A stretch of DNA of 36,933 bases from Clostridia bacterium (GTDB lineage Bacteria; Bacillota; Clostridia; Christensenellales; Borkfalkiaceae): positions 1 through 36,933 of the forward strand of contig JAJQAK010000179.1 of the NCBI GenBank assembly GCA_021203845.1, in the 5' to 3' direction. This document shows, piece after piece, positions 7,568 through 34,435 of the stretch; within the stretch, counting starts at the first letter, position 1, and the number at the start of each line of letters is the position of its first letter. The translations under genes and the position numbers were made by a program. Below the pieces are notes generated by a model. It ran no database searches. It was not told the DNA's origin and saw nothing but the letters and a program-made list of their open reading frames with translations.

Positions 7568-7638
7568 TATATTCTCCGTACAGCCCGCCTCCGAAAAGTC
7601 TCCCATGTCGGCAGCGGAAATGTTTTGATTCTTAATTT

Positions 7639-14477: not shown

Positions 14478-15221
14478 TCACTTACGGCGAGTGCTCTCGT
14501 ACTCGTCCATGATTTGTTTTTCGAGTTTGTCGTCGTACAGAAGGTCCATCCCCCAGACGTTAAGCATGTCGATTTTAAAAACCTCCGGACCGGGATTGTC
14601 CTTCGCTTTGGGCAACACAGCCTCCAGAACGCCGTAATATCTCCCGTCTCTGTAGATGATCGCGAGACGCCTGTAAACCAATTCCATGCCGTTATAATCA
14701 ATCTTAAGTTTGTCACCCGTGACCGGGTCGAGAAGCTCTTTGAGAAAATCCTGGTCGCAAAAATCGCTGTACGCGGAACCGAGCTCGTCCATAACGGAGT
14801 CCGCTACTTCGTCGTCGGTTTCAACGGCGAAATACTCGGAACCGTCGCCGTCGAAGCACAGACGAAAGACCACGACATCTTCTTCCTCGAAGTTCACGAA
14901 TCGCGTGAGAGGTTCAAAGACACAGTAATTCGTCCCGTCTTTTTCGGTCTTCAGAAGAAGCCGAAACACGAAATACCTGCCGAGGCCGTCTCTCAAAAGA
15001 AGCGGCATGTCCTCCACCACGTCCACGTCGTCCATCTTATGAATGCCCTCAAGTTCGCCGTCCCCGTCCACGTCTTCAACGTCTCCGTATATCCACTCGG
15101 CGTCCCGGCTGTGTTTGTCGATATACTCGGAAAGCTTTATGCCGTCCGTGGCCGTGAAGCGCTGGTCTTCAAAAGTTTTGTCGTACAAAAGTTTTTTTGA
15201 AAGTTTGAGATCAAGTCTCAT
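14478..15221 (-). CDS. DUF1292-like repeat protein (two units), cytosolic
   Basis: LLYDKTFEDQRFTATDGIKLSEYID resembles LVYDDFFEKSTFVPSNGKNIYELL in the giant paralogs. Two D/N-G-x5-F/Y-R-L...YYCVFEPL / YYGVLEAV units in the DUF1292 style. RBS GGGGGGAAGG. Confidence 0.65.
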   Translation of the reverse strand: MRLDLKLSKKLLYDKTFEDQRFTATDGIKLSEYIDKHSRDAEWIYGDVEDVDGDGELEGIHKMDDVDVVEDMPLLLRDGLGRYFVFRLLLKTEKDGTNYCVFEPLTRFVNFEEEDVVVFRLCFDGDGSEYFAVETDDEVADSVMDELGSAYSDFCDQDFLKELLDPVTGDKLKIDYNGMELVYRRLAIIYRDGRYYGVLEAVLPKAKDNPGPEVFKIDMLNVWGMDLLYDDKLEKQIMDEYESTRRK

Positions 15222-15294: not shown

Positions 15295-16890
15295 CTACCA
15301 GATTTCGACGTCGCCGTCCTCGTCGTAATGCCAAAAGTTTCCCTCTTTCTTCGGGAGTTTCTCGCTGTAATAATATGCGGGTGCATCGAAGAACGGGTCG
15401 TTTCCTCTCGCGCCTATTCCTATCTGGTACATGCCCCTCTTCCCGCCTTTGTAAAATATCGCCTTTAACCTGTCGCAGCCGTAAAACGCAAAGTGCTCTA
15501 TCTTGTCGAGATATTTGGGGATGACGATGTACTCAAGATTCTTGCACCCATAAAACGTCTCGGCGCATATAGTGTAAACGCTGTCGGGAATCATTATGAA
15601 TTTCAAAGATTCACAGTGCGCGAACATGTCGTCGAATATCTCGTCGAGATTTTCTGGGAGAGTGACAGATTCCAGCGACGAGCACCCATGGAATACGCGG
15701 CAACCGAGATTGTCGACGTTGTCGGGTATACATACTGACTTAAGGGAATCGCAGGAGGCGAACGCTGCCTCATCTATGTATTCGAGACTGTCTGGAAAAG
15801 AAACGCTTTCCAAAGATGAACATCCGTAAAAAGCTTCCGAGCCTATGTAAGTAACACCTTCGGGAATTACAACCCTCGTCACTTTGTCGAGATAGCGAAA
15901 CGCATGGTCGGCGATTTCCGTGAGACCGTCGATTGTCGGAAGCACGAGCTCGGTCCTATCTCCCCTGTATCCGAGACACATGCGTTTGTCACCATTCACA
16001 TACACGACGTATCCGTCCTCCGTCACGGACAGACCGCTTTCTTCTCCTTCCGATATGACGGCACGAAGAGACCCGCCTATGCCTCCGTTCTCGTAGTTGC
16101 GTACCTTTTCGATGTTCATGGAAGAGAGGTTACGGACTTCGACAAGCTTTTCGCAGCCGCAGAACGCCATTTTACCGATGGTCTTCATGCCGGCGGGAAT
16201 CGTGACAGACGTGAGCTCGTCATAGAACGCGAAGGCATACGCCTTAACCTCGGTCACTCCCTCCGGGATGACGAGGTCGTAGAGCGGTTTTCCGCTCACG
16301 AACATCTTTCTGGCGCAAAATACGGGGTTGGAGTAATTACCCTGAAAATCTATTTCCAGCCATGCCGAGATATCGTCGACAAAAAGATTGTCGAACACCG
16401 TACAACCACGGAAGGCGTCCTCCCCGATCTTTACGACGCTGGAAGGAATGTGCACGCTTTTAAGAAACGTGATTCCGCAAAAGGCAAATTTTTTAATCTC
16501 CTCCGTGCCTTCCGGTATATCGAGGTCGGTGACCTGCTTGCCCTCGACGTAAAGAGACGCGTATACGTGCGTCAGCGTGTTGTGTCCTAAGGGATTGGCG
16601 TACCTGTTCGCAAAATCTATCGCGAGCCAAGCATCAAGCCCCGGCGTCTCGACTCTTTCTATATAGTCGCAGCCGGAAAACGCGTCCTCCTCCATGAATC
16701 TTATGCTGGAAGGTACGGTCACGCATCTGAGATCTTTCGCCTTCGTGAACGCGTTCTTTCCTATGCCCACGACCGGCATGTCGCCGTGTTCCGAAGGAAT
16801 CGCCACCTCGTCCCCTTCCAGGGCGTCCGTGACTCCCGCGACAATCCATCCGTCGTCGCTTTTTCTGAATCTCAACGCAGACCTTGCCAT
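15295..16890 (-). CDS. BspA-type leucine-rich repeat (LRR_5) protein, no signal peptide
   Basis: Many I...AF.GC..L..V.IP..V..I repeats; C-terminal YYYSEKLPKKEGNFWHYDEDGDVEIW. The ATG at 16890 (MARSALRF) sits 1 nt after the upstream stop; the longer ORF to 17088 reads into the upstream gene. Confidence 0.9.
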   Translation of the reverse strand: MARSALRFRKSDDGWIVAGVTDALEGDEVAIPSEHGDMPVVGIGKNAFTKAKDLRCVTVPSSIRFMEEDAFSGCDYIERVETPGLDAWLAIDFANRYANPLGHNTLTHVYASLYVEGKQVTDLDIPEGTEEIKKFAFCGITFLKSVHIPSSVVKIGEDAFRGCTVFDNLFVDDISAWLEIDFQGNYSNPVFCARKMFVSGKPLYDLVIPEGVTEVKAYAFAFYDELTSVTIPAGMKTIGKMAFCGCEKLVEVRNLSSMNIEKVRNYENGGIGGSLRAVISEGEESGLSVTEDGYVVYVNGDKRMCLGYRGDRTELVLPTIDGLTEIADHAFRYLDKVTRVVIPEGVTYIGSEAFYGCSSLESVSFPDSLEYIDEAAFASCDSLKSVCIPDNVDNLGCRVFHGCSSLESVTLPENLDEIFDDMFAHCESLKFIMIPDSVYTICAETFYGCKNLEYIVIPKYLDKIEHFAFYGCDRLKAIFYKGGKRGMYQIGIGARGNDPFFDAPAYYYSEKLPKKEGNFWHYDEDGDVEIW

Positions 16891-16891
16891 G

Positions 16892-18634
16892 TCACCACGC
16901 CTCTCTCCAAATGACCGGATTCCCCTTTGCGTCGTAATGCCAGAACTTCCCCTTCCCGGTGGGTTTCGTCTTTCTGAAAAAGTATATCTCAGCGCGGTGA
17001 ATCGCCTCATTGACCCTTTCGATTTCGGTTTTGTGCCAGGAAGACTCTGTCCCTTCGTAAAAAATTCTCTTAAGGTCGTCGCAGTCACAGAAAATCTCCT
17101 TACCGATGTACTGCAACGACTTGGGCAGAATTACTTCTTTGAGGTCGGTCAAACGGAACGCGCACTCGTCCATATAAACAAGCTCTTTGGAAAGTCTCAC
17201 GTGTTCCAGATCGAAACAACCGGAGAAGGCAAATTTTTCTATGTATCCGACTCCCGGGATGTCCGCCACCGTCATCAAATCGTTGCGGTTGAACGCGAAC
17301 TCTCCGATTTTTTTGACGTTTTCCGAAAGCCTTATCTCATCGAGACAGCACCTGTAAAAAGCGCAGATGCCTATGGATGTTACTTTCTCCGGAATGTTTA
17401 TGTGCTCGAGGCTTGAGCACCAGCAGAAAGCGCAATCACCTATGGCAGTGGTGCTTTCCGGCAGAACTATTTTTTTTATGTTTGCACAGTATTCAAACGC
17501 GCCGTTGAATATCTGTCCGCCGCGTATCACCACGGTACGGAGTTCAGGCGGAATGAAGTATGTATGGAAAAAATACGAATCGTCGATGTCTTCCTCTCTG
17601 ATGCCGGACCTTATGAGACTTTCTCTTATTTCGTCCTCATCGTCGTGATAACCCGGAGCACAGCACTGCGACGCGACGTCGTCAGACTTTTCTTCCTCTC
17701 CGAAGATGTATCCAAAAAGCGTCTCCTCGCAAGGTTTTTCCGCTATACGACCGCCAACGAATGGCAGATACATGGTTTCAATCGATATGCACCCTGCAAA
17801 GGCCCCTTTGCCTATGAACCGCACCGTCTCGGGAACGATGACGTGACAAATCTCCGAACGGTTTCTGAACGCGTGCTCGGCGATTCCCAAAACCGGAAGG
17901 CCTTTGTTCCGTGCCGGTATGCGCAGGAACTCATCCTTATTGGCACCCTTACCCGTCACGACGTATCCGCCTTCCGTTTCGGCGTACCTGAGTCCATTGC
18001 TCTCGGGAACCGCATTGCAATCAAACTCCGGATCGAAATTGACACGGAAATTGTAGTTGAGCGAGTCCGTAAACCGTTTGAGAGGAGACAGATGTTCGTT
18101 GAATCTCCACTCCGCGCCAAATCCATGTGGATATCTGTGGCTTCCCGGGTTGATGTCCGGAAGAATGACCACCCCTTCTTCCGAATCATCGTCCTCGTCG
18201 TAATAATATTTCACGGTGAACTCAACCATATCGGGACCGCTGTATTTGCGCGCGGCTTTGAAAATTTCATTTCCCGCATCGATTGACATAATTTGCCAGT
18301 CCCGGGGAGTTCCTCCGTAAATGATTTCGGCGAGAGAGGAACATCCGTAGAACACGAACGGGCCAATACGCCCGACTCCGTTTCCGACGACCACCGTACT
18401 GAGATTTACACACGACTCGAATGCGCTCTCCCCGACGTATCTCACGCTTCCCGGTATATCGACGGATTCGATGTCAGTACAGCTCTCAAAGGCACTCGCG
18501 CAAATCCCCACAACTGGCATGCCACGGTATTTGGGAGGAATAACGATGCAGATATCCCTGCACGTACCGATTCCTGTGACTATGTATCCTTCCTCAGTTT
18601 TCTCAAACTTAAGACCCTTGCTTTCTCCAAGCAT
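16892..18634 (-). CDS. BspA-type LRR_5 protein, no signal peptide
   Basis: LRR_5 repeats; C-terminal FFRKTKPTGKGKFWHYDAKGNPVIW; RBS GGAGG upstream. Confidence 0.9.
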   Translation of the reverse strand: MLGESKGLKFEKTEEGYIVTGIGTCRDICIVIPPKYRGMPVVGICASAFESCTDIESVDIPGSVRYVGESAFESCVNLSTVVVGNGVGRIGPFVFYGCSSLAEIIYGGTPRDWQIMSIDAGNEIFKAARKYSGPDMVEFTVKYYYDEDDDSEEGVVILPDINPGSHRYPHGFGAEWRFNEHLSPLKRFTDSLNYNFRVNFDPEFDCNAVPESNGLRYAETEGGYVVTGKGANKDEFLRIPARNKGLPVLGIAEHAFRNRSEICHVIVPETVRFIGKGAFAGCISIETMYLPFVGGRIAEKPCEETLFGYIFGEEEKSDDVASQCCAPGYHDDEDEIRESLIRSGIREEDIDDSYFFHTYFIPPELRTVVIRGGQIFNGAFEYCANIKKIVLPESTTAIGDCAFCWCSSLEHINIPEKVTSIGICAFYRCCLDEIRLSENVKKIGEFAFNRNDLMTVADIPGVGYIEKFAFSGCFDLEHVRLSKELVYMDECAFRLTDLKEVILPKSLQYIGKEIFCDCDDLKRIFYEGTESSWHKTEIERVNEAIHRAEIYFFRKTKPTGKGKFWHYDAKGNPVIWREAW

Positions 18635-18656: not shown

Positions 18657-21600
18657 TCAGTCCCAAATTACGGGATTCCGTTCATCATCGTAATGCCAGA
18701 AATTTCCGGGCATTTCCGGTCTTTCTTCGCTGTAAAAATAAACCGTTGCGGACAAAAACGACACGTTGCCCTCTTTTGTTACATGCGCATCGCTTAATTC
18801 CTTTTTCCAGTCCCTTTCCGTGGAAGGGAAAAACACGGATTTAAGATTCCGGCACGATTTAAAAGCGCCGGACTTGATTTCCCAAAAGTAACGGGGTAAG
18901 ACAACGTACTCCAGTGCGGTGCATCCGCTGAATATGTTCGTGGGTATGGTGATAAGACATTCTCCGAAGGCGAAGGACCGAAGCGTCTTACAACCCTCGA
19001 AAGCGGAAACTCCGAGGTTAAACCTGACGACGTCATCCGGGATTTTGAAGTCTGTGAGTCCGCTCGATGTAAACGCGTAATCGCCGATATACAACAAAGT
19101 GGACGGAAGACTCACATCAGAAAGATTTGCGCATCCGCTGAACGCCTCCTCGTCTATGAACGAGACGCCCGCTGGGATTGTGACAGAAGTTATGTCCGTG
19201 CGGTCCTTGAACGCCGACGGACCTACAGCCGCGACCGTGAGTCCGTTGTATCTGCACGGCAACACAAGATTTTTATTCGTGCATCCGCCCAATCCCGCGA
19301 CCACGCAACACTTTCCGAATCTCTGATATTCCAGTCCGTGTGCCAAATTTTCGTCCTCCGCGTCCCCGAGTAGGACATCTTCTTGGGGAAGGTTCACGAC
19401 TGGGTCGAAGGGATATTTAATCATGCCGCCGTCCGACTGCTTTCCGGAAGCAGTAGGACCTTTCTGCACCCCCGTCCACTTGGTGGGTTTGAACTTTTCC
19501 GAGTAGTGCCAGCGGCCCTTCACGGGACTGGGACGCTCCTCGCTGTAAGAAAAGAAACGGCTGTCGTCAAAAAGACACGCATTGCCCTCTAAAGCCGTGT
19601 CGATTCTTCTCCACCGGGATGCGTTGCCCTTGTAAAAAATCGAAACGTAATCACAGGCGCTGAAAGCGTTCTTTGCTATTTTCACGCAGGTGTCGGGAAT
19701 CACTATGCCCGCAAGCGACGTGCACCTGGCAAAAGTTCTCTCCTCTATCACGGAAACGTCGCTTAAGATTGTCACGTTCTTAAGACGGTAGCAACCGTAA
19801 AATGCCCCGTCTCCTATTATGTCGACCCCCTTTGAAATCACGATGTTCTCAAGGGTTTTGTCGTCTTCAAACGCACCGCTAGAGACGGCTACCACCTTCT
19901 CTCCTCTGTACGTCGGTGGAATGACTATGTTCTTTTCTTCGCAGTCCCCCCTGCCAAGCACGGCGTATCCGCCGTGAGTTACCATGTAATCTAAGCCGTA
20001 TGTCGGAAGATAGGCATTGGACACATAAGCAGAGTAGTCCAAAGCGGGCTCCTTGTACGCTCTCCATTTGGTGCGGTACGACGAATAGCTGTTGCTTTGA
20101 TAATGCCAGAATTTTCCGGGTTTCGTGGGTTTTTCCTTGCTGTAAAAGAGAAGCTCCGCTCCAAGCAGATTTTCGTTCCCCTTCTTTTCAATCCTTATTT
20201 TACTCCATTCCTCTTCCGTACCCTTGTAGTAAACCACCACGATTCCGGAACAGCCTTCAAAGGCGCCCTCATCTATCGAAACCATGCTCACTGGAATGAC
20301 CACGCTGCTGATTTGTTTGCAGTTCAAAAAGGCGTGCCTTCCTATTGATTCGAGATCGTCCGGGAATTCGCACCAGAAATAAGCGGGACAATCCGCGAAC
20401 GTATTCTCCTCTATTCTTGCCAAAGAGTCGAACTCGACCCGCCCGAGATTCGGAGAGCCCTCAAAGGCCCCGGCGCCTACAGACTTCACAGAACCGGGGA
20501 CATGGGCGAATCTTATGGGGCATTTCGCGAACGCAGACTTTTCAATCCCGACCACGGGCTTCCCTTCGAATTCGGAAGGAACGCCGACGTTCGACGCCCT
20601 GCACCCGCCGATTCCCGTAACGACGAACCCATCTTCGATTGATTTGAAATCCATAACGCACGGAACGTCCTCTTCCGACGCGTCGCCGCATCTCATGAAA
20701 TTTTCGTGGCGTATGAAGCTGTATTTCTTCTCCTCCCATTCCATGTAACCGTGGCAGTAAGATTCGGCATAACTGTTGAGGTAAGTGCACGCGGGAAAAT
20801 CCGCCGAGTCGAGGTTTATTCTCACAGTCCCGCACTTGGGGCAGACATCGCCGGAGTAATGAGTATGGCACTTGGGACACGTAAAATTCATCACCACGGT
20901 GCTGTTTTTCCTGCCTTTGCCGGACACCCTCTGCATCTCGTATTCCCCCACAATGTCGATGACGATATCCTTGTCAAATTCCACGTCAAGCACACCGTGC
21001 GGTTCTTTGCCGACACTGAACGCATAGACGGCGTCCTCCATGAATCCGCGGCCAGTGGAAAGAGCGCGAAGAACCGCGTAGATTTTCCCCGGTCGGTCAT
21101 TTGCGATGTACTCGAGCATAAATCTGCACATGTCCCCTCCTTTCTGTTTGAAGAAGACGGGACGGTCGTACAAACTATGTTTAACTATCTCCTCAGCGCG
21201 CGGATAGTCCAGAAAAACCTTGTCGTCTCTCTCGAAAATCTCGTATATGCCGTCGACGATCTTGTCGTACACGTCACTTCTCGTCTCCACGGTCAGAACG
21301 GGGGAGAAGAAGTCGGTGTCGTTGACACAGAACAGAATCTCTGTGTCGTCGTCGCACCCTTTGATTTTCGTCACGGGGTTGAGAAGCGCGTAAAGCGTGT
21401 AACCGTACGAAGTGACCGCCTCTATGCTGAAACTTATCTTTCTTCCGGCGTCATCAATGAGAACAAGCGGTTTACTTTTTTCGACGGAGCTTACGAGGAG
21501 AAGTTCGTATATATTTTTCCCGTTCGAGGGAACGAATGTAGACTTTTCGAAAAAATCGTCGTAGACGAGTTCCGCCGAAGCAAGATGCCGGTTTCCTTCT

Positions 21601-22256
21601 CTTTTCCACTTAAGTTGCGACTCTTTGCGGTATTTCCCCCTGATGATGCTTTGGTATTTGTAGTCCGGCACCTCGAAGGACTGGGGACTCATTTTTTCAT
21701 CGTATCTGTAGACGATTTTCTCGTTCTTCTTGAACACGTCAAAACAGTCGAGCGGCTCGAAAATAACGTAAAGGTCTTCGCCTATGTACATCGATGCGAG
21801 TTTCCTGAAATGTACTTCTCTGTCGTTGTCGAAGGAAAGATTTATCGTGTCGTGATTGTCCGGGTCCTCGAGCCTGGACTTCAAACTGCTCGTTCTGTCG
21901 ATGTGTTTCTCGAATTCCCGAGAAAAAACGTCTTTCAGCTCCGCCGCCAATTTTTTGTTCTTCACCGCATGCATCGAAGGCGGATTCGTATTTTTGTCCG
22001 CCTCGAAGACGACCGTGTCGCCCTCCTTTAATCCCTGTACCGGAATAAGAGGCAGAAGATAGGCGTAAAGATGTCCGTCTGAAGTCATTGTGGAAAGTCT
22101 CAAAAACGGAACTTCCTTTCCTCGCGAATCTTTGACCAGGAAGGCATTGTCGCTGGGCCTTTGAATCAGCATATCGCAAATGTCTTTTTTACCAATCGAT
22201 GTGAACGTCTCATTCATGAGCTGATAATCGAAATAAAAGCCGTTAGAATCCGCCAT
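18657..22256 (-). CDS. giant protein: DUF1292-like repeats, zinc ribbon, three LRR_5 blocks (paralog 1)
   Basis: 1199 aa. N-terminal ~460 aa with about four DUF1292-like units; FTCPKCHTHYSGDVCPKCG; three LRR_5 blocks each ending in a WHY...W module. AAGGAGGAAAC-ATG. No signal peptide. Confidence 0.88.
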   Translation of the reverse strand: MADSNGFYFDYQLMNETFTSIGKKDICDMLIQRPSDNAFLVKDSRGKEVPFLRLSTMTSDGHLYAYLLPLIPVQGLKEGDTVVFEADKNTNPPSMHAVKNKKLAAELKDVFSREFEKHIDRTSSLKSRLEDPDNHDTINLSFDNDREVHFRKLASMYIGEDLYVIFEPLDCFDVFKKNEKIVYRYDEKMSPQSFEVPDYKYQSIIRGKYRKESQLKWKREGNRHLASAELVYDDFFEKSTFVPSNGKNIYELLLVSSVEKSKPLVLIDDAGRKISFSIEAVTSYGYTLYALLNPVTKIKGCDDDTEILFCVNDTDFFSPVLTVETRSDVYDKIVDGIYEIFERDDKVFLDYPRAEEIVKHSLYDRPVFFKQKGGDMCRFMLEYIANDRPGKIYAVLRALSTGRGFMEDAVYAFSVGKEPHGVLDVEFDKDIVIDIVGEYEMQRVSGKGRKNSTVVMNFTCPKCHTHYSGDVCPKCGTVRINLDSADFPACTYLNSYAESYCHGYMEWEEKKYSFIRHENFMRCGDASEEDVPCVMDFKSIEDGFVVTGIGGCRASNVGVPSEFEGKPVVGIEKSAFAKCPIRFAHVPGSVKSVGAGAFEGSPNLGRVEFDSLARIEENTFADCPAYFWCEFPDDLESIGRHAFLNCKQISSVVIPVSMVSIDEGAFEGCSGIVVVYYKGTEEEWSKIRIEKKGNENLLGAELLFYSKEKPTKPGKFWHYQSNSYSSYRTKWRAYKEPALDYSAYVSNAYLPTYGLDYMVTHGGYAVLGRGDCEEKNIVIPPTYRGEKVVAVSSGAFEDDKTLENIVISKGVDIIGDGAFYGCYRLKNVTILSDVSVIEERTFARCTSLAGIVIPDTCVKIAKNAFSACDYVSIFYKGNASRWRRIDTALEGNACLFDDSRFFSYSEERPSPVKGRWHYSEKFKPTKWTGVQKGPTASGKQSDGGMIKYPFDPVVNLPQEDVLLGDAEDENLAHGLEYQRFGKCCVVAGLGGCTNKNLVLPCRYNGLTVAAVGPSAFKDRTDITSVTIPAGVSFIDEEAFSGCANLSDVSLPSTLLYIGDYAFTSSGLTDFKIPDDVVRFNLGVSAFEGCKTLRSFAFGECLITIPTNIFSGCTALEYVVLPRYFWEIKSGAFKSCRNLKSVFFPSTERDWKKELSDAHVTKEGNVSFLSATVYFYSEERPEMPGNFWHYDDERNPVIWD

Positions 22257-22306
22257 GTTTCCTCCTTATAAAAATTCCCGAAGGCACCTTCGCCCTGCGT
22301 TATGTC

Positions 22307-25300
22307 TCACTTGTCCCAGATTACGGGATTCCGTTCGTCATCGTAATGCCAGAAATTCCCAGGCCTTTCCGGTCTTTCCTCGCTGTAAAAATACATCGTT
22401 GCGTTCCAGAAGTCCTCGTTCCCTTTCTGCGCCAACTCGGCATATTTATATTCCCTTTTCCATTCCTTTTCCGTCGAGGGGTAGAACACCGCTCTAAGCG
22501 ATCTGCACGTCTCAAAGGCACAAGGGCTGAGTTTGCGGAAATAATGCGGGAATATGACATACTCGAGTGCGGTGCATCTGCGAAACGCGTACTTAGGGAT
22601 ATCGAACATTCTTTCCCCAAAGACCACCGATTTGAGTTTTCTGCAGCTTTCAAAGGCGGAAACGCCGAAATAATGCCACATGTTTTCCGGCAGGTCAACG
22701 CTTTCCAAAGCACACGACGAGAACGCGAATTTTCCGATTCTCTCGACGGAGTCCGGTATGTCCGCGCTGACAAGCCCCGTACAGCCCTCAAAGGCCTCGT
22801 CGTCCACGCTTGTGACGTTGTCGGGAATCTCGACGGAGGTTATGTCCGTGCGGCCTTTGAACACTGCGGGCCCAATTGCCGCGATGTAAAGGCCATTGTA
22901 CATGGTCGGAAGGATGAGATTTTTCTTAAGGTCCGTGCACGATCCGAGCCCGGCTACGGCACAATATTTTCCGAGTCTCTGATATTCGAGCCCGTGCGGC
23001 AGATTTTCTTCTTCCGCAGTCCCGAAGATTACCTCCTCACGCGGAAGGTTCACGGCCGGATTGAACGGGTATTTTATCACACCGACTTCCGACTGTTTTC
23101 CGGAAGCAGCGGGCCCCTTCTGCGCACCCGTCCATTTGGACGGCTTGAACTTCTCCGTAAAGTGCCAGTGCCCCTTTATCGGGGAGGGACGCTCCTCGCT
23201 GTAAAAAAAGAGATTGCTGTCGTAGAAAAGACATTCGTTGCTCTCCGGTTCGATATCGATCTCTTTCCACTTCTCCGCATCACCCGTAAAATATATCACG
23301 GCGTCGTCGCAGTCGCTGAAGGCGTGCTCTCCTATTTTCTTGCAGGTATCCGGAATGACCACGCTCGCGAGCGAGAAACTGTTACCGAAAGTCCAGTCCT
23401 CTATCTCAGATATATCGCTCAAAATTATCACGTTCTTTAAGTCGGAGCAGTAGTTAAATGCCCCTGCGCCTATCTTGTTCACGCCCTTTGAAATCACGAC
23501 GTTTTTCAGTATGTCATCCTTCTCAAAGGCGCAGTTCGAAACAGCAACGACCCTCTCACCCTTATAATACGAAGGAATGACAATGTTCTTATCCTCGCAT
23601 TCCTCCCTTCCGACGACCATATATCCTCCGATGGTCTTTTCATACTTCAAGCCGTAGCTCGGAAGATAGTCGTTGGAGACGAATGCCGAGTAGTCCGTCG
23701 CGGGATCCCTGTACGCTCGCCATTTGATGCGGCATGAGGATTTTTCGTCCATGAAGTGCCAGAACGACCCCGGCCTCGTGGGTTTCTCCTTACTGAAATA
23801 CAGAACATCCGCACGAAACAGTGTGGCGTTGCCTTTTTCGTCTATACGAATTTTACACCATTCATCCTCTTTCCCATTATAATATACTGTTTCAAGTTTT
23901 TCACATCCGTCGAAAGCACCATCTTCTATGGTTGTCATGCTCTCCGGAATCTGTATGCTATTAATTGCGGAACATCCAAAAAACGCGTTCCTTCCTATCG
24001 TCTTAATACCCTCCGGAAGATCAGAGTTCCGAAGAGACTTGCAATTCATGAACATACCTTCCTCTATTTTGTCCACTGTGGCGTCAGACTCAAACTGATT
24101 TAAGCTTTGACACCCCTCGAACGCTAAAGCACCGATGAACTTCACGCTGTCAGGGACATGGACGGAACAAATGCGACTTTTCGCAAACGCAGACTTTTCT
24201 ATCCCTATCACGGGCTTCCCGTTGTATACGGAAGGTATACCGATTTTATCTGCCTTGCACCCTCCGATCCCCGCAACGACGTAACCGTCGCCACTGAGTC
24301 TGAAGTTCAAAACACACGGTGTCTCTGTTTGCGGCTCCACGCCACACCTGGTGTAGTAAGAAAAATATCTGTAACTGAATTTTTCCAACTCAAACGACAT
24401 ATATTCCCGGCAAATCGAAGCCGAATATCGGTCAAGATAAATACACGCGGGGTAATCCACCGAACCAAGATTTCTTCTTGTCGCCCCACACTTGGGGCAA
24501 ACATCCCCTGAGTATTCGGTAAAGCATTTGGGACAGAGAAAATCCAATCTGCCGACCGCAAATTTCTCGGACTCGTCACCATAATCTCCGTTCTCATTGG
24601 CGGAATCTTCTTCCTCGTCGAAAACGGCGTTATATTCATCCATAAACTCGTTTATGCTTTTGTCATCGGTTTCCAGATTAAGGTCGCCGAAATTGTTTCT
24701 GCCAAGTTTCTTCATGCAGAACACATACTCCTCATCTTCTTCAAACGTGCGGGTTGAAGACAAGGCGGCAAGAACCGCGTAAAGTTTTTTCGGATGGTCT
24801 TCCGTATTGTATAAAACGACAAATCTGCAGTATTCATCATCGTTGTTTTTGTAAAAGACGGGAAACTCGTCTTCAAGTCCGTTAAGCAGGATTTCTTCCG
24901 ACGGCGGATAGTTTAAGAGAATTTCTTCGTCGTCGTCAAACATATCATACACGTCGTCGAGAATCTCGTCATATATTGCCTTGTTTGTTTCCACCTGTAG
25001 CACGGGGGAAAAGTAGTCGTAATCGTTGACCTGAAAAAGAATCTCCGTATCCTTGTCACACCCTTTGATTTCCGTTATCGGATTCAACACGACATACAGA
25101 TAAAGATGGCAAGGCGCAACCGCCTCGATTCTGAAAGTTATTTTCCTTCCGGCTTCATCCCTTAGGACAAGCGGTTTTTTTAGCCCGTCCAGGTCCGTAA
25201 GAAGCAAATCGTAGATGTTTTCGCCGTCTGCGGGAATAAACGTGGTTTCTTCAAAAAAATCGTCATAAACAATCTGCTTTCCGCCTTGACCTATGAGACG

Positions 25301-25960
25301 ATTCTTCCTGGACTCGAGAACCTTTTCATTCAAATATTTGTCCATCACAAGATTCTGCATCTTTTGTGTAGGCACCTGGAGTGATGGCGGCATAATCTTG
25401 TCGTTGCAAAAATAAACAAACTTTGCGTTGTTTTTAAACAATTCCAGATGGTCCATGGGTTCCAGCACCACGTAAAGTTCGCCGCCTATGCATTCCGCGG
25501 CAAGTTTTTTGAACTTGACGCTTGTCTTTGGCTTCACGAAGATGGGCACCGGCTCATGGTTGTCCATATCGGCAAGCCACGCTCTGAAATTATTCATCTT
25601 ATATTCCTGATTATCGAGTGCCTGTTCAAAAGCTTCCATGACCTCATCAGTTATTTTTTTGTCCTTTACAACATGCATCGTGGACGGGGACTCAGTTCCG
25701 TCGACTTCGACGACCACCGGCTCTCTCTTTCTTAAACCCTGTATATCGATTAACGGAAGAATAAGGGAATAGAGTTTATCGTCGGCGAACATAGTAATGA
25801 GTTTTACAAACGGCACATTCTTTCCCCGTGTGTCCACGGTCTCGAAAGATATATCATTAAACCTGTCGGACAGTATTGTATAAACATCTTTTTCTCCGAT
25901 CGCCCTGAATGTCTCGTTCATCAGCTGATAGTCGAAATATAAATCGTCATTTTTCCCCAT
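22307..25960 (-). CDS. giant protein: DUF1292-like repeats, zinc ribbon, three LRR_5 blocks (paralog 2)
   Basis: 1217 aa. Same architecture; FLCPKCFTEYSGDVCPKCG; C-terminal FYSEERPERPGNFWHYDDERNPVIWDK. Confidence 0.88.
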   Translation of the reverse strand: MGKNDDLYFDYQLMNETFRAIGEKDVYTILSDRFNDISFETVDTRGKNVPFVKLITMFADDKLYSLILPLIDIQGLRKREPVVVEVDGTESPSTMHVVKDKKITDEVMEAFEQALDNQEYKMNNFRAWLADMDNHEPVPIFVKPKTSVKFKKLAAECIGGELYVVLEPMDHLELFKNNAKFVYFCNDKIMPPSLQVPTQKMQNLVMDKYLNEKVLESRKNRLIGQGGKQIVYDDFFEETTFIPADGENIYDLLLTDLDGLKKPLVLRDEAGRKITFRIEAVAPCHLYLYVVLNPITEIKGCDKDTEILFQVNDYDYFSPVLQVETNKAIYDEILDDVYDMFDDDEEILLNYPPSEEILLNGLEDEFPVFYKNNDDEYCRFVVLYNTEDHPKKLYAVLAALSSTRTFEEDEEYVFCMKKLGRNNFGDLNLETDDKSINEFMDEYNAVFDEEEDSANENGDYGDESEKFAVGRLDFLCPKCFTEYSGDVCPKCGATRRNLGSVDYPACIYLDRYSASICREYMSFELEKFSYRYFSYYTRCGVEPQTETPCVLNFRLSGDGYVVAGIGGCKADKIGIPSVYNGKPVIGIEKSAFAKSRICSVHVPDSVKFIGALAFEGCQSLNQFESDATVDKIEEGMFMNCKSLRNSDLPEGIKTIGRNAFFGCSAINSIQIPESMTTIEDGAFDGCEKLETVYYNGKEDEWCKIRIDEKGNATLFRADVLYFSKEKPTRPGSFWHFMDEKSSCRIKWRAYRDPATDYSAFVSNDYLPSYGLKYEKTIGGYMVVGREECEDKNIVIPSYYKGERVVAVSNCAFEKDDILKNVVISKGVNKIGAGAFNYCSDLKNVIILSDISEIEDWTFGNSFSLASVVIPDTCKKIGEHAFSDCDDAVIYFTGDAEKWKEIDIEPESNECLFYDSNLFFYSEERPSPIKGHWHFTEKFKPSKWTGAQKGPAASGKQSEVGVIKYPFNPAVNLPREEVIFGTAEEENLPHGLEYQRLGKYCAVAGLGSCTDLKKNLILPTMYNGLYIAAIGPAVFKGRTDITSVEIPDNVTSVDDEAFEGCTGLVSADIPDSVERIGKFAFSSCALESVDLPENMWHYFGVSAFESCRKLKSVVFGERMFDIPKYAFRRCTALEYVIFPHYFRKLSPCAFETCRSLRAVFYPSTEKEWKREYKYAELAQKGNEDFWNATMYFYSEERPERPGNFWHYDDERNPVIWDK

Positions 25961-26033
25961 ATCCTCTCCTTCTAAAAAAACGCAATAAACGCTTCATCAC
26001 ACCGTACATCAGAAGTATACATTCCGGTTTGTA

Positions 26034-29000
26034 TCATTTGTCCCATGTCACGGGTTTTCCGTCATCGCCGTAATGCCAAAAATTTCCGGGCGTTTCCGGC
26101 CTTATTCCGCTGTATACATACATCGTGGCATTGAGAAAGCTCCTGTTCCCCGTTTCATCCACGTCAAGCATGAATTTCTCGTGTTCCTTCGCAGATAAGG
26201 GTATGAAAACAGCCTTGAGCGAATTGCACCCCTCGAACGCACACGCTCCTACACCGTGGCAGAGACTAGGCAGAACGACGTATTCCAAAGAAGCGCAACC
26301 GGAAAAGGCGCGTAAGGAAATGGCCGTAATCCGTTCTCCCAAGTCCGCCGAAAAGAGTTTTTTACAGTTTTCAAAAGCGGAAACTCCTATCTTCTCCACA
26401 GAGGCGGGCAACTCGATTTCGCAAAGACCGTCGCACCCGCTGAACGCCTCGTCGTCTATTGCCGTGACGCCATCGGGAATCGAGACAAACTTCATGTCCG
26501 TACGACCTTTGAACGCAGCGATTCCGATTTTTGTGACGTTGAGGCCGTTATACATGGAAGGCAAAACAACGTTTTCAAGGTCCGTGCACGAGCCCGTCCC
26601 AGCGACCGCGCAGCATTTTCCGAGTCTCTGATATTCGAGCCCGTGCGCAAGTTTTTCTTCCTCCGCTTCCCCGAACAAAACTTCCTCCCTCGGAAGGTTT
26701 ACGGCCGGGTCGAACGGATACTTTATCACGCCGTCGGTGTCACCGGTGCCCTTCCACCTGACGGGCTTGAATTTCTCGGTGTAATGCCAGTGCCGTTTTA
26801 CCGGCTTTGCCCTCTCCTCGCTGTAAAAGTACACGCAGTCATCGTCTGAAAGCAGTTCGTTGTCATCTCTGTCTATATCCACGCCGTTCCAAAGAGTCCT
26901 GTCTCCTTTGAAAAATATCGCAGGATCGTAACAGCAGTCAAAAACGTGTTTCCCCATCTCTTTGCAACTGCCGGGAATCACGACGCTTACGATGTCCCCA
27001 CATTCGCAAAACGTCTCATCCTCAATCTTTTTCACGTCTCCCAAAATGACGGCCGTTTTGAGATTTTTGCAACCCCGGAACGCCGATGCGCCTATTTTGC
27101 CGACGCCCTCCGGCACGACGATGTTTCTTATGACGGCGTCGTTCTTGAACGCGCCATTTCCCAACGCTATGACTTTTTTCCCGAGATGCGTCCCGGGGAT
27201 GACAATGTCCTTTTCCTCGCAGTCGCCCCTCCCGGTGACGACATATCCGTCTTCCGTTTCCTCGTATTCGAGGCCGTAGGTCGGAAGATAGTCGTTGGAA
27301 GAAAACGCTCTGCAATCCTTCGCAGGTTCACTGCACGCCTTCCATTTGATACGGCACGAACCGTTTTCATTGCTGTAGTGCCAAAATTTCCCGGGTCTTA
27401 AGGGGTTATCCCTGCTGTAAAAGAGAATCTCCGCACAGTTCAGCGCGTCGTTCCCTCCGGCGTCCTTTTCGACTTTCGCCCAATCCTCCTCATCGCCACA
27501 ATAATAAACGGAGCCAAGCGTTCGGCAGTCTTTGAACGCACCTTCCTCGACGGAAACCACGCTCACGGGAATTTTAATTTCTTTTATCGACTCGCATCCC
27601 AAAAACGCGAAACTTCCCAAAGCTTCAAGTCCGTTCGGCAATTCGACAGACGAGAGCTTCGGACAGTATGCAAAAGTCCTCTCCTCTATTTCGGATAGGG
27701 GCGAAACGAAACGGACGTATTCCAGGCGCGGACATCCCTCGAATGCCGAGGCTCCAACGAACTTCACGCTCCCGGGGACACGAACGTATTTTAACGGGCT
27801 TTTCGCGAACGCCGACTTTTCTATCCCGACCACGGGCTTTCCTTCGTGTTCGGAAGGAATTCCCAGGTATTCCGCTATGCACGTGCCGATTCCGGTAACA
27901 ACGAAACCCTCATCGGAAAGCGCGAACTCCAGCCCGCACGGCATGTCTGAATACGGCTCCCCGCCGCATCTAAAGAAATCCGGAAAGTTTTTGCCGTCGG
28001 ATTTCTCCGCCTTCCACGCCACGTAATTTTGGCAGCAGGCCTCCGAATATTCGCTGAGATACACGCACGATGGATACTCCGCCGAGTCGGTGTTCTTTCT
28101 TTGTGCCCCGCACTTCGGACATACGTCCCCGCGGAACTTTGTCAGGCATTCCGTGCATCTGAAAACCGGCTCCGTCCTCTTCCCGCCGTACGCGACATCG
28201 AACGGACTCGCGCCGTTTGCGAGGGCGGCATCGCACTTCTTCTTTATCTTATTTATCGTTTTCCTGTCGAATTCTGGTTCCAGGTCGCAAAAAAGCGTAT
28301 CCGTGAAATCGTCGAGACAGAAGACATATTTGTTGTTTTTTATGTACGGGAAAGACGAAGACATCGCAGTGAACACGGCGTAAACCTCATCCGGCCGGTC
28401 CCAGTCCACGAACACCGGTCTGAATCTGTAGTAAAAGCCGTCAAACCCCATGCAGAAAACGGGGAATCCCTTCATTTCGTCGCAAAGAATGTCTTCCAGG
28501 GAAGGATATTCCAGAAGAATTTCCTCCTCGTCGTCAAATATATCGTAAACGGCATCGAAGATTTCGTCGCATATCCGCTCGTCCGTCTCGACTCTGAGAA
28601 CACGGCCATGCAGTTCGTCATCGACAAAGAAAAGAATCTCCGTGTCCGCATCGCAGCCTTCTATCTCGGTGACGGGACAAAGTACCGCGTAAAGCAGGAA
28701 ATCATACCCATATACCGCCTCTATTCTGAATGTGATGTCTCTGCCTTTTTCGTCTCTTAGCGTGACGGGGGTTTTGAAATCTTCCGCCTCTCCGAGAAGA
28801 ACGTCGTATATGTCTTCACCCTCCACGGAAACATAGGACGACTTCTCGAAAAAATCGTCGTACACGATTTTGCCGGGGGCTGCGGCGCGACCCTCCGTCT
28901 TCTTTTTTTCAAGCGTTTTGCGATATTCCGCCAGAATATCCTCGCACACTTCTTTTTTTGCAGGCTCAAACTGCGGAGGAGACACGCCGTCGTCGCACCT

Positions 29001-29549
29001 GTACACGAACTCAGCGTCCTTATCGAATAGTTCGAGATGGTCCATCGGTTCCAAAATCGCATAGACGTCTGTACCCCTCTCGATGACGGCTAGTCTTTTG
29101 AAGGCCACGCTAACGTCCGGCCTGACCATGAGACGCAAAGGCTCGTCGTCGTCCAAATCTTTTAGCCACTCTCTGAAGTTGTCGAAAACATACTCCTGAT
29201 AGTCCATGCCGTCCGAAACGGTCTTCGCTACGCTGTCGGCAATCAAATCGTCCGTCACGGCGCGCATGGTGAACGGAACCGCGGTCCGGTCGATTTCAAA
29301 AAGAACCTCGCTTCCCTCCTTTCTTCCCCGAATCCTCTCCAGAGGGACAAGATACGCATAAAAACCCTCTTCGCTGTCCAGCACGGTCATGCCACTGAAC
29401 GAAAGAATTCTCCCCTTCGTGTCTCTCACAATGATGGGTTTGTGATTGAATCTCTCCGATATGAGCGATTCCGCGTCCCTCATTTCGACCGAGGTGAACG
29501 TCTCGTTCATGAGGCTGTATTCTGAATATGCGTCGTCCGTTTTTGCCAT
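26034..29549 (-). CDS. giant protein: DUF1292-like repeats, zinc ribbon, three LRR_5 blocks (paralog 3)
   Basis: 1171 aa. Same architecture; FRCTECLTKFRGDVCPKCG; C-terminal YSGIRPETPGNFWHYGDDGKPVTWDK. Confidence 0.88.
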   Translation of the reverse strand: MAKTDDAYSEYSLMNETFTSVEMRDAESLISERFNHKPIIVRDTKGRILSFSGMTVLDSEEGFYAYLVPLERIRGRKEGSEVLFEIDRTAVPFTMRAVTDDLIADSVAKTVSDGMDYQEYVFDNFREWLKDLDDDEPLRLMVRPDVSVAFKRLAVIERGTDVYAILEPMDHLELFDKDAEFVYRCDDGVSPPQFEPAKKEVCEDILAEYRKTLEKKKTEGRAAAPGKIVYDDFFEKSSYVSVEGEDIYDVLLGEAEDFKTPVTLRDEKGRDITFRIEAVYGYDFLLYAVLCPVTEIEGCDADTEILFFVDDELHGRVLRVETDERICDEIFDAVYDIFDDEEEILLEYPSLEDILCDEMKGFPVFCMGFDGFYYRFRPVFVDWDRPDEVYAVFTAMSSSFPYIKNNKYVFCLDDFTDTLFCDLEPEFDRKTINKIKKKCDAALANGASPFDVAYGGKRTEPVFRCTECLTKFRGDVCPKCGAQRKNTDSAEYPSCVYLSEYSEACCQNYVAWKAEKSDGKNFPDFFRCGGEPYSDMPCGLEFALSDEGFVVTGIGTCIAEYLGIPSEHEGKPVVGIEKSAFAKSPLKYVRVPGSVKFVGASAFEGCPRLEYVRFVSPLSEIEERTFAYCPKLSSVELPNGLEALGSFAFLGCESIKEIKIPVSVVSVEEGAFKDCRTLGSVYYCGDEEDWAKVEKDAGGNDALNCAEILFYSRDNPLRPGKFWHYSNENGSCRIKWKACSEPAKDCRAFSSNDYLPTYGLEYEETEDGYVVTGRGDCEEKDIVIPGTHLGKKVIALGNGAFKNDAVIRNIVVPEGVGKIGASAFRGCKNLKTAVILGDVKKIEDETFCECGDIVSVVIPGSCKEMGKHVFDCCYDPAIFFKGDRTLWNGVDIDRDDNELLSDDDCVYFYSEERAKPVKRHWHYTEKFKPVRWKGTGDTDGVIKYPFDPAVNLPREEVLFGEAEEEKLAHGLEYQRLGKCCAVAGTGSCTDLENVVLPSMYNGLNVTKIGIAAFKGRTDMKFVSIPDGVTAIDDEAFSGCDGLCEIELPASVEKIGVSAFENCKKLFSADLGERITAISLRAFSGCASLEYVVLPSLCHGVGACAFEGCNSLKAVFIPLSAKEHEKFMLDVDETGNRSFLNATMYVYSGIRPETPGNFWHYGDDGKPVTWDK

Positions 29550-29568: not shown

Positions 29569-30447
29569 TTATCCCGTCTCTCCGTCCGAAGGCCTGCGTG
29601 CACCAGGTAGGGCACCCCACACGACGTCTGTGCCTTCGTCCGCCCACCTCTTCTGCCAGCCCGAAGGGGGCACGGGAGCCTCGGCGTACACCGTCTCAAG
29701 CGGCGTCCCGGAAAAAGCCCCCGTCGCAATTTTCGCGACCGTGAGCGGAAGATAAATCTCCCTGAGAGAGTCGCACTTCGCGAACGCCTCTTTTTCTATG
29801 TTTTCGACGACCCCGGAAAGCACGAAGTCCTCCAAAGATTTGCACGCATAAAACGTCCTCGCGTGCACCCTTCTGCAACGCGCGGGAACAACGATTTTGT
29901 TGAGTGACGAACACCCTTTGAACGCCGCGTTCCCGATGTATTCGACAGACTTGGGAAGCTCTATTTCAGAAAGTTTTTCGCATCCCTCGAACGCAGAATT
30001 TTCTATGTATCTCACGCTGTCCGGAACGATAACCGACTCGAGCGACGAGCAACCAAAGAAAAGCTCCTCGCTCACGACGTTCACTCCGCGGCGCAGTTTG
30101 AAGGACTTCAAAGAGGAGCACCCTTTGAACGCCCCCATGCCGAGGGCATCCACTCTCGATTCCGGCACTATGACTTCGGAAAGATTCGTACACCCCGCGA
30201 AAGCGAAGTTTCCTATAGCGGAGACGCTGACAGGTATTACGACGGTTTTAAGCGCCCTGCAGCCTTTGAACGCATCCTTTCCTATCTCGGTCACATACGA
30301 CGGTATGACAACCGACTCGTCCTTCTTTCCCGTATATCTGACGAGGACTCCCTCCTCCACGCGGCATCTGTCGGCGAACGTTTCTCCGTCGTCTTTGATT
30401 TTTGCTCTCGCCGCCTCAGCCTGCGCTTTCATCTCGTCCGCATCCAT
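29569..30447 (-). CDS. BspA-type LRR_5 protein, no signal peptide
   Basis: LRR_5 repeats from VVIPSYVTEIGKDAFKGC onward. GGGGAGGAAAGC-ATG supports the start at 30447 (MDADEMKAQ). Confidence 0.87.
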   Translation of the reverse strand: MDADEMKAQAEAARAKIKDDGETFADRCRVEEGVLVRYTGKKDESVVIPSYVTEIGKDAFKGCRALKTVVIPVSVSAIGNFAFAGCTNLSEVIVPESRVDALGMGAFKGCSSLKSFKLRRGVNVVSEELFFGCSSLESVIVPDSVRYIENSAFEGCEKLSEIELPKSVEYIGNAAFKGCSSLNKIVVPARCRRVHARTFYACKSLEDFVLSGVVENIEKEAFAKCDSLREIYLPLTVAKIATGAFSGTPLETVYAEAPVPPSGWQKRWADEGTDVVWGALPGARRPSDGETG

Positions 30448-30530
30448 GCTTTCCTCCCCGTGTCGTTTTTGCGCCGAGCCGACCTTCCGGTCGACATCCT
30501 CCGCACATCGTTTTACTGCTTTATTTTCCG

Positions 30531-30848
30531 CTAACCGGTTTCGCCGCCACATTTACTGAGCCAATTGGAGACGTTTCCCTTGCACATATTATGTTTGCGG
30601 GCAATCTCCCGTACGCTTAAACCAGATTCGTATTCCGCTATGGCCTCCGCCTTGGTTTCCTCGGAGTACCTTATGCGTTTGGGGTCAATCGTATATGTCT
30701 TTTTGTAGTCAAGACACATGCATCTTTGGGAGCCAGAGGCGGTTTTTCCGTGACGAATTTGACCATCTGTACTGCCGCAGAACGGGCAGATCTTACCGGA
30801 AATTTGTCTCGCTGTTTTTATGCTTTCTTTCTGACCGGAGTCGGTCAC
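30531..30848 (-). CDS. InsA-like zinc-finger/HTH protein (IS1-type transposase accessory ORF), orphan
   Basis: ICPFCGSTDGQIRHGKTASGSQRCMCLDYKKTYTIDP + YSEETKAEAIAEYESGLSVREIARKHNMCKGNVSNWL. GTG start overlaps the upstream stop. No DDE transposase ORF adjacent. Confidence 0.7.
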   Translation of the reverse strand: MTDSGQKESIKTARQISGKICPFCGSTDGQIRHGKTASGSQRCMCLDYKKTYTIDPKRIRYSEETKAEAIAEYESGLSVREIARKHNMCKGNVSNWLSKCGGETG

Positions 30849-31143
30849 AGGGAATTGTGCTCGTCCTCTCCGCTTTTTTTGAGCCAGTACGCCACGTTCC
30901 CCTTGTTCATGCCGTATCTGCGGGCGACCTCCCGCGCACTGTCGCCGAATTCGTATTCCCTGACGGCGTCTGCCTTGGTTTCTTCGGAGTACCTCTTGAA
31001 CTTGGGGTCAATCGTATACGTCTTTTTGCAGTCTAGACACAAGCATCTTTGGGACCCCGATGCGTTTTTGCCGCGACGGATCTGGTTTTCCACGCTACCA
31101 CAGTACAGGCAGATCTGCCGGGAATAAGTTTCGCTGTTTTCAT
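30845..31143 (-). pseudogene. second InsA-like zinc-finger/HTH ORF, 1-nt frameshift near its 5' end
   Basis: ATG at 31143 gives MKTAKLIPGR, aligning to IKTARQISGK of the neighbour. Homology then continues one frame away as ICLYCGSVENQIRRGKNASGSQRCLCLDCKKTY. The ORF caller began this frame at the GTG at 31093, inside the zinc finger. Confidence 0.7.
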
Positions 31144-31966: not shown

Positions 31967-34435
31967 TCAAATATCGTAAACCGAGACGACTATGCAAAAT
32001 CCCACGCCTTCCCCCCCGCGAAAATCCATGCGGTAGTACACGCAGAGCTCACCATCGTCCGAGTTCATGGAAACAGTTTCAGTCTCACCCAAAGCGGCGT
32101 ATCCGTTGTCGCGAAGGTCCGCGGGTGCGAAGAAATTTTTGTATCGGTTGTCCACAGCGAACAATGTGCCGTTGTTCGTGGAAAAGACGAGAGGAAGCGG
32201 CTGCATGGACTTCAGGCCTACGCCGCTCTCGAAATAGTTCACACACGCGGCGTTGTAAAGGGACACGTCTCCGCCGAAGTCGTCCAGCGTCTCAATGTGG
32301 CTTCCGTCTTCGTCCTGCGTGAGGTTAGACTCATTGAACACATACGGAACGTTGTCCCCGGTGCAAAAATACATGTTAAGCCTATTCGCTCCCCATGCAA
32401 AATCGTCCGTGTCGTGCTGGAGCGACTTGAGATTTATCTTGCCGTCTTCGTTGAGAACGGTTTTCGTGGGATTTCCGTCCTGGTCCACACTGCATCTCTG
32501 GATGAGCATATCGAAAAGTTCTATGTACGTGGCTATGGCCGTCGCGTTGGAGCTCACGAACCACGCCTCGGCACCCGAGATGAAGCTCTCGAGCGGCGTT
32601 TCGTCGTCGAAGGAGACTCCGCACTGGTAGTATCCGCCGAACTGCTCCGTGCCCCGTTCCTCGGTCTCGCTCATCTGGAAAACGGCGGGTCCGCTGAAAC
32701 GCCTGAAGTCGGACTCCGTCACCTCGTTGCGGGCGGCCCTCGATATCCTCATGGCGCTGAAATAACAGTCGTACACTTTGGTGTGGGTTATCGTGAGATT
32801 GACGTACTTATCGTCCGAGTCCTCCGCCCTGAAACCGTACAGGAACTTTCTCGCGTGACAGTTGTCGACGATGGTCTTGGACGTGAGAGAATCTATGAAG
32901 CAGTAGCTCCCCGCCTCCTTGCCGTCGACGTCGCTATCGTCTATGCTGTTGCCTATGCCTCCGAGATTTTGAAAGGTCGCCACGGGTCTCGTGTCGGGGT
33001 CGATGTTTTTGTCTACTTTCCCCTGCACGGCGAAAAGCGAAAGTCTTCCCCCTCTGTAGACGTCGGTCTTGCTCTCCTTGTAGTGGCCGAACTCCCCGTT
33101 CGTGTCGATATAGGTCATGGCCCATTTGAGCCCTGAGCAGTCGACCGTGAAGAGGTTCCCGCCCAATGTGAAGTCGTCATTCTCCAGGTATTTCTGATAG
33201 AGGTTGACTCCGTCGCGCATGGAACCTATCATCTCGTCGTAGTTACAGCTGTACCATTTCGCCTCGGACTCGGTAATCATGAAGTCTTCCGGAACGTCGT
33301 CCGCCGTGATACTGATGTCGCAGTGAAGGTATATGCCGTTCACCGGAGAAAGGTCGTCATAGCCTTTTCCTCCGAGAAATTTCGCCCAGATTTCGTCCGT
33401 ATATTTCGTCACGGGCGTCTCGGTCGCCTCGTCCCAGAAAAAGTCGGCAAGCTGTTGGTTATAGTCGCCGTCTATCACGTACTCCTTCCTGTTAAAGTCG
33501 GAGCTCGTAATGTTCATCATGCCGAGGTCGAGTGCGGAGTAGACGTTCCAGCCGTCGCCCACGGTAACGTACATGGAATATCCGGAAAGAGGTTCGTTGT
33601 TGTAGTTGTACTCAAATCCCTCGGGTGCGGAAATGTCGACAAGGAACGTCTTGCCAACGGCGGCTTCCGAGAAATCTATCCCGAAGCCGTCGACACCGTC
33701 TAGGTAGTCGGTTATGTCGAGATTGGTCTTTTCCCCGTCTTCATCCGCGAGGGTCACGGTGAGCTCCATTCCGTAGTCGGAGAACGTCCCCATGGACCCT
33801 GTCCTCCGGTCCATGACGTTTAGCACGGGTTTGAACACGAACTCGTTGTCGTCGCCGACGAAGTATTCGTCCGCGGGTGCGTAGAACTTGTCCTCGTCCT
33901 CGGTGTTTTTCCCGGATGTCGCCTCTTTCGACCTCGTGTCAAAAGACTCCTTAAGCCTAGGCTCCTCGTAGGAAAAGACGGAGAGTTCGGAGACGTAGTT
34001 TTCTCCCACCGTCACCGTCTGCCAGTCTCTGCTGTAGCCTTTCTTTATTATCGCCCTCCCGGAGGGAATGCTGAAGGAAATCTTATAGTCGCCCGCCGCG
34101 ATTTTTCCGCCGGCCCTGACCTCGTCATAAAGACCGTCAGTGTTGAGAATGAACTCCGTGTCACTCGCGGCCTGTCTGTCGGAAATGTCGTATTCTTTGT
34201 TTTTGAGAATCTCCGTGCTCCCGTCGTCATACGTTACGGTGAGTGTCACGGCATCGAAATCTATCGTGCTCGTCGGAAGATAATATATGTCGAGGTTGTT
34301 AAGAGAAACCCCTTCGATTTTCCTGTCCTTTTTCCCGCTGCATCCGTAAAGGAACCTCGTACAGCCGAAAATAAAGAAAAGTGCGATTCCGAGTGCTATC
34401 AGTGCGAACACGGCAGATTTCGTGGCTCTCTTCAT
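31967..34435 (-). CDS. large predicted lipoprotein/secreted protein with Ig-like N-terminal region and possible beta-helix
   Basis: MKRATKSAVFALIALGIALFFIFGCTRFLYGCSGKK; DAVTLTVTYDDGSTEILKNKEYDIS (bacterial Ig-like pattern); VNLTITHTKVYDCYFSAMRISRAARNEVTESDFRRFSGPAVF (parallel beta-helix-like). Confidence 0.7.
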   Translation of the reverse strand: MKRATKSAVFALIALGIALFFIFGCTRFLYGCSGKKDRKIEGVSLNNLDIYYLPTSTIDFDAVTLTVTYDDGSTEILKNKEYDISDRQAASDTEFILNTDGLYDEVRAGGKIAAGDYKISFSIPSGRAIIKKGYSRDWQTVTVGENYVSELSVFSYEEPRLKESFDTRSKEATSGKNTEDEDKFYAPADEYFVGDDNEFVFKPVLNVMDRRTGSMGTFSDYGMELTVTLADEDGEKTNLDITDYLDGVDGFGIDFSEAAVGKTFLVDISAPEGFEYNYNNEPLSGYSMYVTVGDGWNVYSALDLGMMNITSSDFNRKEYVIDGDYNQQLADFFWDEATETPVTKYTDEIWAKFLGGKGYDDLSPVNGIYLHCDISITADDVPEDFMITESEAKWYSCNYDEMIGSMRDGVNLYQKYLENDDFTLGGNLFTVDCSGLKWAMTYIDTNGEFGHYKESKTDVYRGGRLSLFAVQGKVDKNIDPDTRPVATFQNLGGIGNSIDDSDVDGKEAGSYCFIDSLTSKTIVDNCHARKFLYGFRAEDSDDKYVNLTITHTKVYDCYFSAMRISRAARNEVTESDFRRFSGPAVFQMSETEERGTEQFGGYYQCGVSFDDETPLESFISGAEAWFVSSNATAIATYIELFDMLIQRCSVDQDGNPTKTVLNEDGKINLKSLQHDTDDFAWGANRLNMYFCTGDNVPYVFNESNLTQDEDGSHIETLDDFGGDVSLYNAACVNYFESGVGLKSMQPLPLVFSTNNGTLFAVDNRYKNFFAPADLRDNGYAALGETETVSMNSDDGELCVYYRMDFRGGEGVGFCIVVSVYDI

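Follow-up and report, generated by a model that had tools for sequence, protein, structure and literature searches.

Why should a bacterium carry, side by side on one strand, three genes whose very large products join DUF1292-like units, a zinc ribbon and LRR_5 blocks, and where in the cell would such products work? The window analysed here, a stretch of 36,933 nucleotides from a clostridial genome of the Borkfalkiaceae, had been annotated initially as holding three such adjacent genes of a single layout, and the open reading frames bear this out, since paralogs A, B and C align end to end with 48-52% identity at a repeat spacing of about 3.6 kb. They belong to a longer array (Table 1), read in the order G, C, B, A, E, F, D with short gaps. 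Gene G may in truth start further downstream within its ORF than called, because that ORF overlaps a transposase fragment. Adjoining the array head, positions 30531-31124 of the window hold a 255-nt sequence twice in tandem, the copies being 73% alike; a short transposase fragment of the InsA-like zinc-ribbon/HTH type overlaps the first copy. Positions 35798-36490 encode an AAA_25 protein resembling a phage primase/helicase (phrog_2597, E 1.7e-31), perhaps the remnant of an integrated element. Two other proteins of the window have a lipoprotein-like signal and no Pfam match, one of 822 aa (31967-34435) and one of 476 aa (6176-7606), the latter reading like a repeat-rich beta-helix.

Table 1. 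Genes of the array, in reading direction, and parts of paralog B (positions in the window).
Feature	Position	Strand	Length	Description and evidence
Gene G	29569..30552	-	327 aa	Short LRR_5 protein, array head
Paralog C	26034..29549	-	1171 aa	Four DUF1292-like units, zinc ribbon, three LRR_5 blocks; first of the three paralogs
Paralog B	22307..25960	-	1217 aa	Layout as in paralogs A and C
Paralog A	18657..22256	-	1199 aa	Layout as in paralogs B and C
Gene E	16892..18634	-	580 aa	Leaderless LRR_5 protein, next after paralog A
Gene F	15295..16890	-	~531 aa from ATG at 16890	Leaderless LRR_5 protein
Gene D	14478..15221	-	247 aa	Standalone two-unit DUF1292-like protein, array end
B, unit 1 and short preamble	25601..25924	-		Internal repeat, hhalign, AF2
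B, unit 2	25286..25606	-		Internal repeat, hhalign, AF2
B, preamble and unit 3	24902..25279	-		hhalign; AF2 pLDDT 85.9, pTM 0.79
B, unit 4 (degenerate)	24596..24901	-	Residues ~354-455	hhalign 73.8%; strand/helix order in AF2
B, C4 zinc ribbon CPKC-x8-CPKC	24488..24535	-	Residues 476-491	Paralog alignment
B, three LRR_5 blocks	22307..24310	-		Each ends in FYSxExPxxPGxFWHY-type cap

The N-terminal halves had been read as about four DUF1292-like units, and this reading holds at the level of profiles and predicted folds. When the three halves are aligned, three off-diagonals of internal repeats reach scores of 34-45, whereas the highest score among 100 column shuffles is 13. In hhalign comparisons with a profile of 27 standalone-relative sequences from other genomes, units 1, 2, 3 and 4 reached 98.0, 97.9, 99.3 and 73.8% (E 2e-13, 6e-13, 5e-20 and 3e-5), and the zinc region had no match to the same profile. 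An alignment of 42 sequences, both units and standalone relatives, draws on this genome together with further genomes of its order, and 30 of the 42 match Pfam PF06949; two standalone relatives tested match PRK13678 (YrzB) models, below cut-off. Plain Pfam, in contrast, scored paralogs A and C at 21.6 and 13.5 bits, under the curated DUF1292 cut-off of 24 bits, and gave nothing for B, so that the question could not have been decided by an HMM search only. The AF2 model of unit 3 of B displays a beta5-alpha fold, and in the model of residues 1-545 (mean pLDDT 75.5) the order of five strands plus a helix returns four times over. On profile evidence, units 1 to 3 are homologues of DUF1292/UPF0473 (YrzB; PF06949, NCBIfam PRK13678), with which they have the sequence pattern and the predicted beta5-alpha fold in common; unit 4 is weak in sequence, yet takes on the same topology in the model. 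Foldseek searches of the PDB with a single unit and with residues 1-545 returned best E values of 0.6 and 0.0045, and these matches were dropped as structural relatives because all listed TM-scores were below 0.4. No solved structure resembling the predicted DUF1292 fold was found in the PDB searches, and the DUF1292 part had no match in PHROGs.

DUF1292 is a widespread protein of Firmicutes, hardly mentioned in the open-licence literature that was searched. Ordinarily it consists of one unit of about 75-100 aa and sits beside ruvX, whereas each paralog holds two pairs of units within about 1200 aa and lies away from ruvX. The strongest repeat offset in the N-terminal half is 225 residues, the preambles of the two pairs are similar (YFDYQLMNETF and VYDDFFEETTF), and pair 1 matches pair 2 with an E of 2e-9 in profile comparison; units 1-2 and units 3-4 are two copies of one pair. 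By the same approach, pair 1 matches a standalone 219-aa gene on contig C117 at 99.7% over 206 columns, and gene D, likewise a pair, matches those of the paralogs at 94-95% by hhalign and passes Pfam DUF1292 with 24.7 bits against the cut-off of 24. Judged by these comparisons, the building block proper is a protein of two units and about 220 aa, duplicated in the paralogs and also standing alone in the same genome. A canonical single-unit DUF1292 adjoins ruvX on contig C160, and small divergent DUF1292-like clusters occur on two further contigs, C117 (L021:2499-4066, minus strand) and C91 (L023:522-1725, plus strand). Each cluster comprises three adjacent small genes. Over both clusters, most of the genes resemble DUF1292 in profile comparison and at least two have no Pfam score; together they represent a lineage-specific expansion of DUF1292. 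With canonical, clustered, free-pair and fused double-pair genes all present, the genome holds the ingredients of the fusion, and from them we infer that a pair arose first, was duplicated, then fused and finally triplicated. The description "expanded by duplication" given at first is accordingly right as to the tandem duplication, but understates the doubling of the pair, its joining to a zinc-ribbon/LRR_5 gene and the triplication.

Behind the units, a zinc ribbon is strictly placed in all three paralogs as first noted, except that five residues, and not six, precede GDV. The ribbon begins at residue 460 of paralog A and residue 465 of paralog C, and its two CxxC knuckles, spaced C-x2-C-x8-C-x2-C, are invariant in the paralogs and in relatives encoded on contigs C143 and C2; Y/F-P-x-C follows. 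No curated zinc-ribbon family scored above cut-off, the best being DZR with 12.7-13.9 bits against 27.3, and the AF2 model has a block pLDDT of 34-66 at the predicted ribbon. The three LRR_5 blocks are confirmed as three strong stretches per protein of BspA-type LRR_5 (PF13306; 224-257 bits, cut-off 27.7), and solved structures of related repeats, e.g. 4fs7, 4gt6 and 6mlx, are matched by another LRR_5 protein of this genome, encoded on contig C46. That the paralogs have the architecture and composition described here we regard as close to certain.

This C-terminal half has relatives of its own. The genes on C143 and C2 start straight with the ribbon, and both the ribbon and the LRR start align with those of the paralogs; the nearest sister genome, G043 (MazG 82% identical), has a gene of the same ribbon-first type without DUF1292, LYKCRNCKTLYLGRFCPECG...YPICC. 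These leaderless proteins display the same kind of ribbon, the Y/F-P-x-C, the LRR start and the type of cap found in the paralogs, but begin at the ribbon where the paralogs carry DUF1292 upstream. Using a hydrophobicity rule in place of SignalP, 27 of the 31 LRR_5 ORFs in this genome (two of the 27 being cut at the 5' end) lack an N-terminal hydrophobic segment, as do 11 of the sister's 16; that signals are picked up by the rule is clear from the remaining four and five ORFs, respectively, which score positive. For this genome, the assumption of LRR_5 proteins being secreted as a rule therefore fails. Because leaderless LRR_5 proteins, many of them beginning with a zinc ribbon, prevail both here and in the sister, the zinc-ribbon/LRR_5 half is a pre-existing, probably cytosolic family to which DUF1292 is the new addition. 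We make no claim for an order-wide cytosolic form: a zinc-ribbon/LRR model matched 218 of 396 genomes of the order, mostly through its LRR part, and the loci and relatives inspected in those genomes were mostly lipoproteins. In several of these lipoproteins (L106-L123) a CxxC..CxxC motif precedes related LRR_5 blocks, so a zinc-ribbon-like motif before LRR_5 exists in exported proteins too.

As to location, no N-terminal hydrophobic segment, TM segment or LPxTG was found in A, B or C by the hydrophobicity rule and motif search, in agreement with the initial annotation, and no signal peptide can hide upstream because the open frames run merely 3-11 codons past the listed ORFs. This supports, short of proof, the intracellular placement proposed at first. 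DUF1292 and zinc ribbons are, moreover, cytosolic-type domains, and the exported LRR_5 and other extracellular proteins of the genome bear clear signals, all of which speaks against the reading that the paralogs, although lacking a classical signal, are exported and act like BspA at the surface or towards the host. Blocks of LRR_5 with FWHY-type caps do occur in proteins of this genome with lipoprotein-like signals, and BspA-like proteins, which differ from the paralogs in having neither the N-terminal DUF1292 units and ribbon nor the lack of export signal and anchor, are treated in the literature as secreted or located at the surface (PMC2843621), but overall we consider such a role improbable. 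Cysteine content was dropped as an argument on location, exported LRR_5 proteins of this genome being about as rich as leaderless ones. Non-classical export of the paralogs may occur and limits the argument; even so, we consider a cytosolic location quite likely.

In a further group of proteins LRR_5 is combined with TIR, a domain of intracellular action in characterised cases. The C46 gene (L102:830-2329, plus strand) encodes a protein of 499 aa without leader, composed of a C4 motif at the N terminus, a helical part, a TIR_2 domain (34.0 bits against a cut-off of 28) and LRR_5, and has relatives in G043 (L265:339-1847), 70% identical, and in G087 (L270:1501-3234). Like the paralogs, these three proteins are leaderless, with a predicted N-terminal zinc-binding motif and C-terminal LRR_5; unlike them, they carry a helical part and TIR in place of DUF1292, and a single LRR_5 block. 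The zinc-ribbon/helical/TIR front is also joined to a UvrD-type helicase in this genome (C50, L272:3-1880, minus strand) and to a second TIR in G466 (L271:1015-2547, minus strand), so that, to judge from domain order, these proteins are a modular TIR family with varying C-terminal parts. By analogy, the paralogs could be cytosolic recognition proteins of defence or surveillance, in which LRR_5 would sense a phage or other foreign protein and the DUF1292 part would relay the signal. The presence of zinc-ribbon/TIR/LRR_5 proteins in this genome and in two congeners, the exchange of LRR_5 for a helicase or second TIR in other family members, the divergence of tandem paralogs close to transposase and phage-primase-like remnants, and an array position that varies between species are all consistent with this. 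However, Pfam finds no effector domain in A, B or C and no signalling domain such as TIR or NACHT, which sets them apart from TIR/LRR or NLR-type proteins; PADLOC had no match for A or C and marginal ones only for the TIR/LRR_5 protein, and a signalling role of DUF1292 is not established. Surveillance is thus unlikely, and we rank it below a scaffold or binding role because the paralogs carry no effector domain. Bolder still, leaderless zinc-ribbon/LRR_5 proteins with exchangeable N-terminal modules (DUF1292 pairs or helical-TIR) might be intracellular bacterial LRR sensors with a layout like that of eukaryotic LRR immune receptors, DUF1292 serving as one of the adaptor modules, a speculation to which we give little credence.

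The full fusion was seen in this species only: an N-terminal model found it nowhere else in 93 genomes of the genus, 396 of the order, 391 of the class and, through named records, seven near relatives, these being mostly drafts in which absence is not proof of absence. Elsewhere the matches of the model are for the most part single units, carried by proteins of about 100-170 aa. Two exact-pattern scans with the N-terminal alignment, over genome and viral collections, gave no match, nor was there one in phage and plasmid records. The host itself, an uncultured gut species, has an AsnRS about 82% identical to that of Candidatus Coproplasma species, the closest record among the genomes found with this protein being a MAG at 91%. 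MazG-Dus is conserved in sister species, and in their readable regions the array was not seen upstream of MazG, the G043 contig beginning 1.9 kb upstream of that gene; a fusion concealed by contig breaks in G043 was rejected, as its three DUF1292-like genes measure 105-174 aa with complete frames. Confinement to one species among the sampled genomes, absence of the array from that site in congeners and the transposase fragments abutting it would all suit a recently expanded array of little or no dedicated function, drifting or serving as a stock of sequence for recombination with other LRR_5 genes. Yet none of the three frames, each some 1200 codons long, is interrupted, and only one identical run of at least 25 nt (33 nt) is shared between paralogs, so that there is little to indicate recent gene conversion. 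Moreover, substitutions between A and B fall at codon positions 1, 2 and 3 at 0.31, 0.27 and 0.56, and because third positions dominate, the paralogs look like selected coding genes; an array of little or no dedicated function is accordingly improbable. In the open-licence papers searched, neither the domain combination, nor the pair-of-pairs organisation, nor the leaderless LRR_5 context is described. The idea of an undescribed family fits the fusion, found in one species: the domains are known, and their combination is new, built on a wider leaderless LRR_5 group.

Taken together, we favour, with a probability of roughly 0.5, the explanation that a duplicated two-unit protein of YrzB/UPF0473 type was fused upstream of a leaderless zinc-ribbon/LRR_5 family member, that the fusion was then triplicated in tandem, and that the paralogs would remain in the cytosol as multivalent binding proteins. 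A recognition or scaffold function, as proposed from the outset, is what we infer, since the function of DUF1292 is not established and its predicted fold has no solved match. Target proteins would be bound by the LRR_5 solenoids, which would differ in specificity as the paralogs diverged, and the zinc ribbon would act as a structural joint. We know of no binding partner of DUF1292, but the four units could dock to the cytosolic partner of the ordinary single-unit protein, or to each other. For this multivalent scaffold or binding mechanism as such, our confidence is tentative and somewhat short of even.

Contrary to the usual assumption that LRR_5 marks a surface protein, many LRR_5 proteins of this lineage, the TIR-linked ones included, are probably cytosolic. 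A lineage in which DUF1292 is multiplied and coupled to a binding solenoid may, furthermore, offer a handle on what DUF1292 binds.
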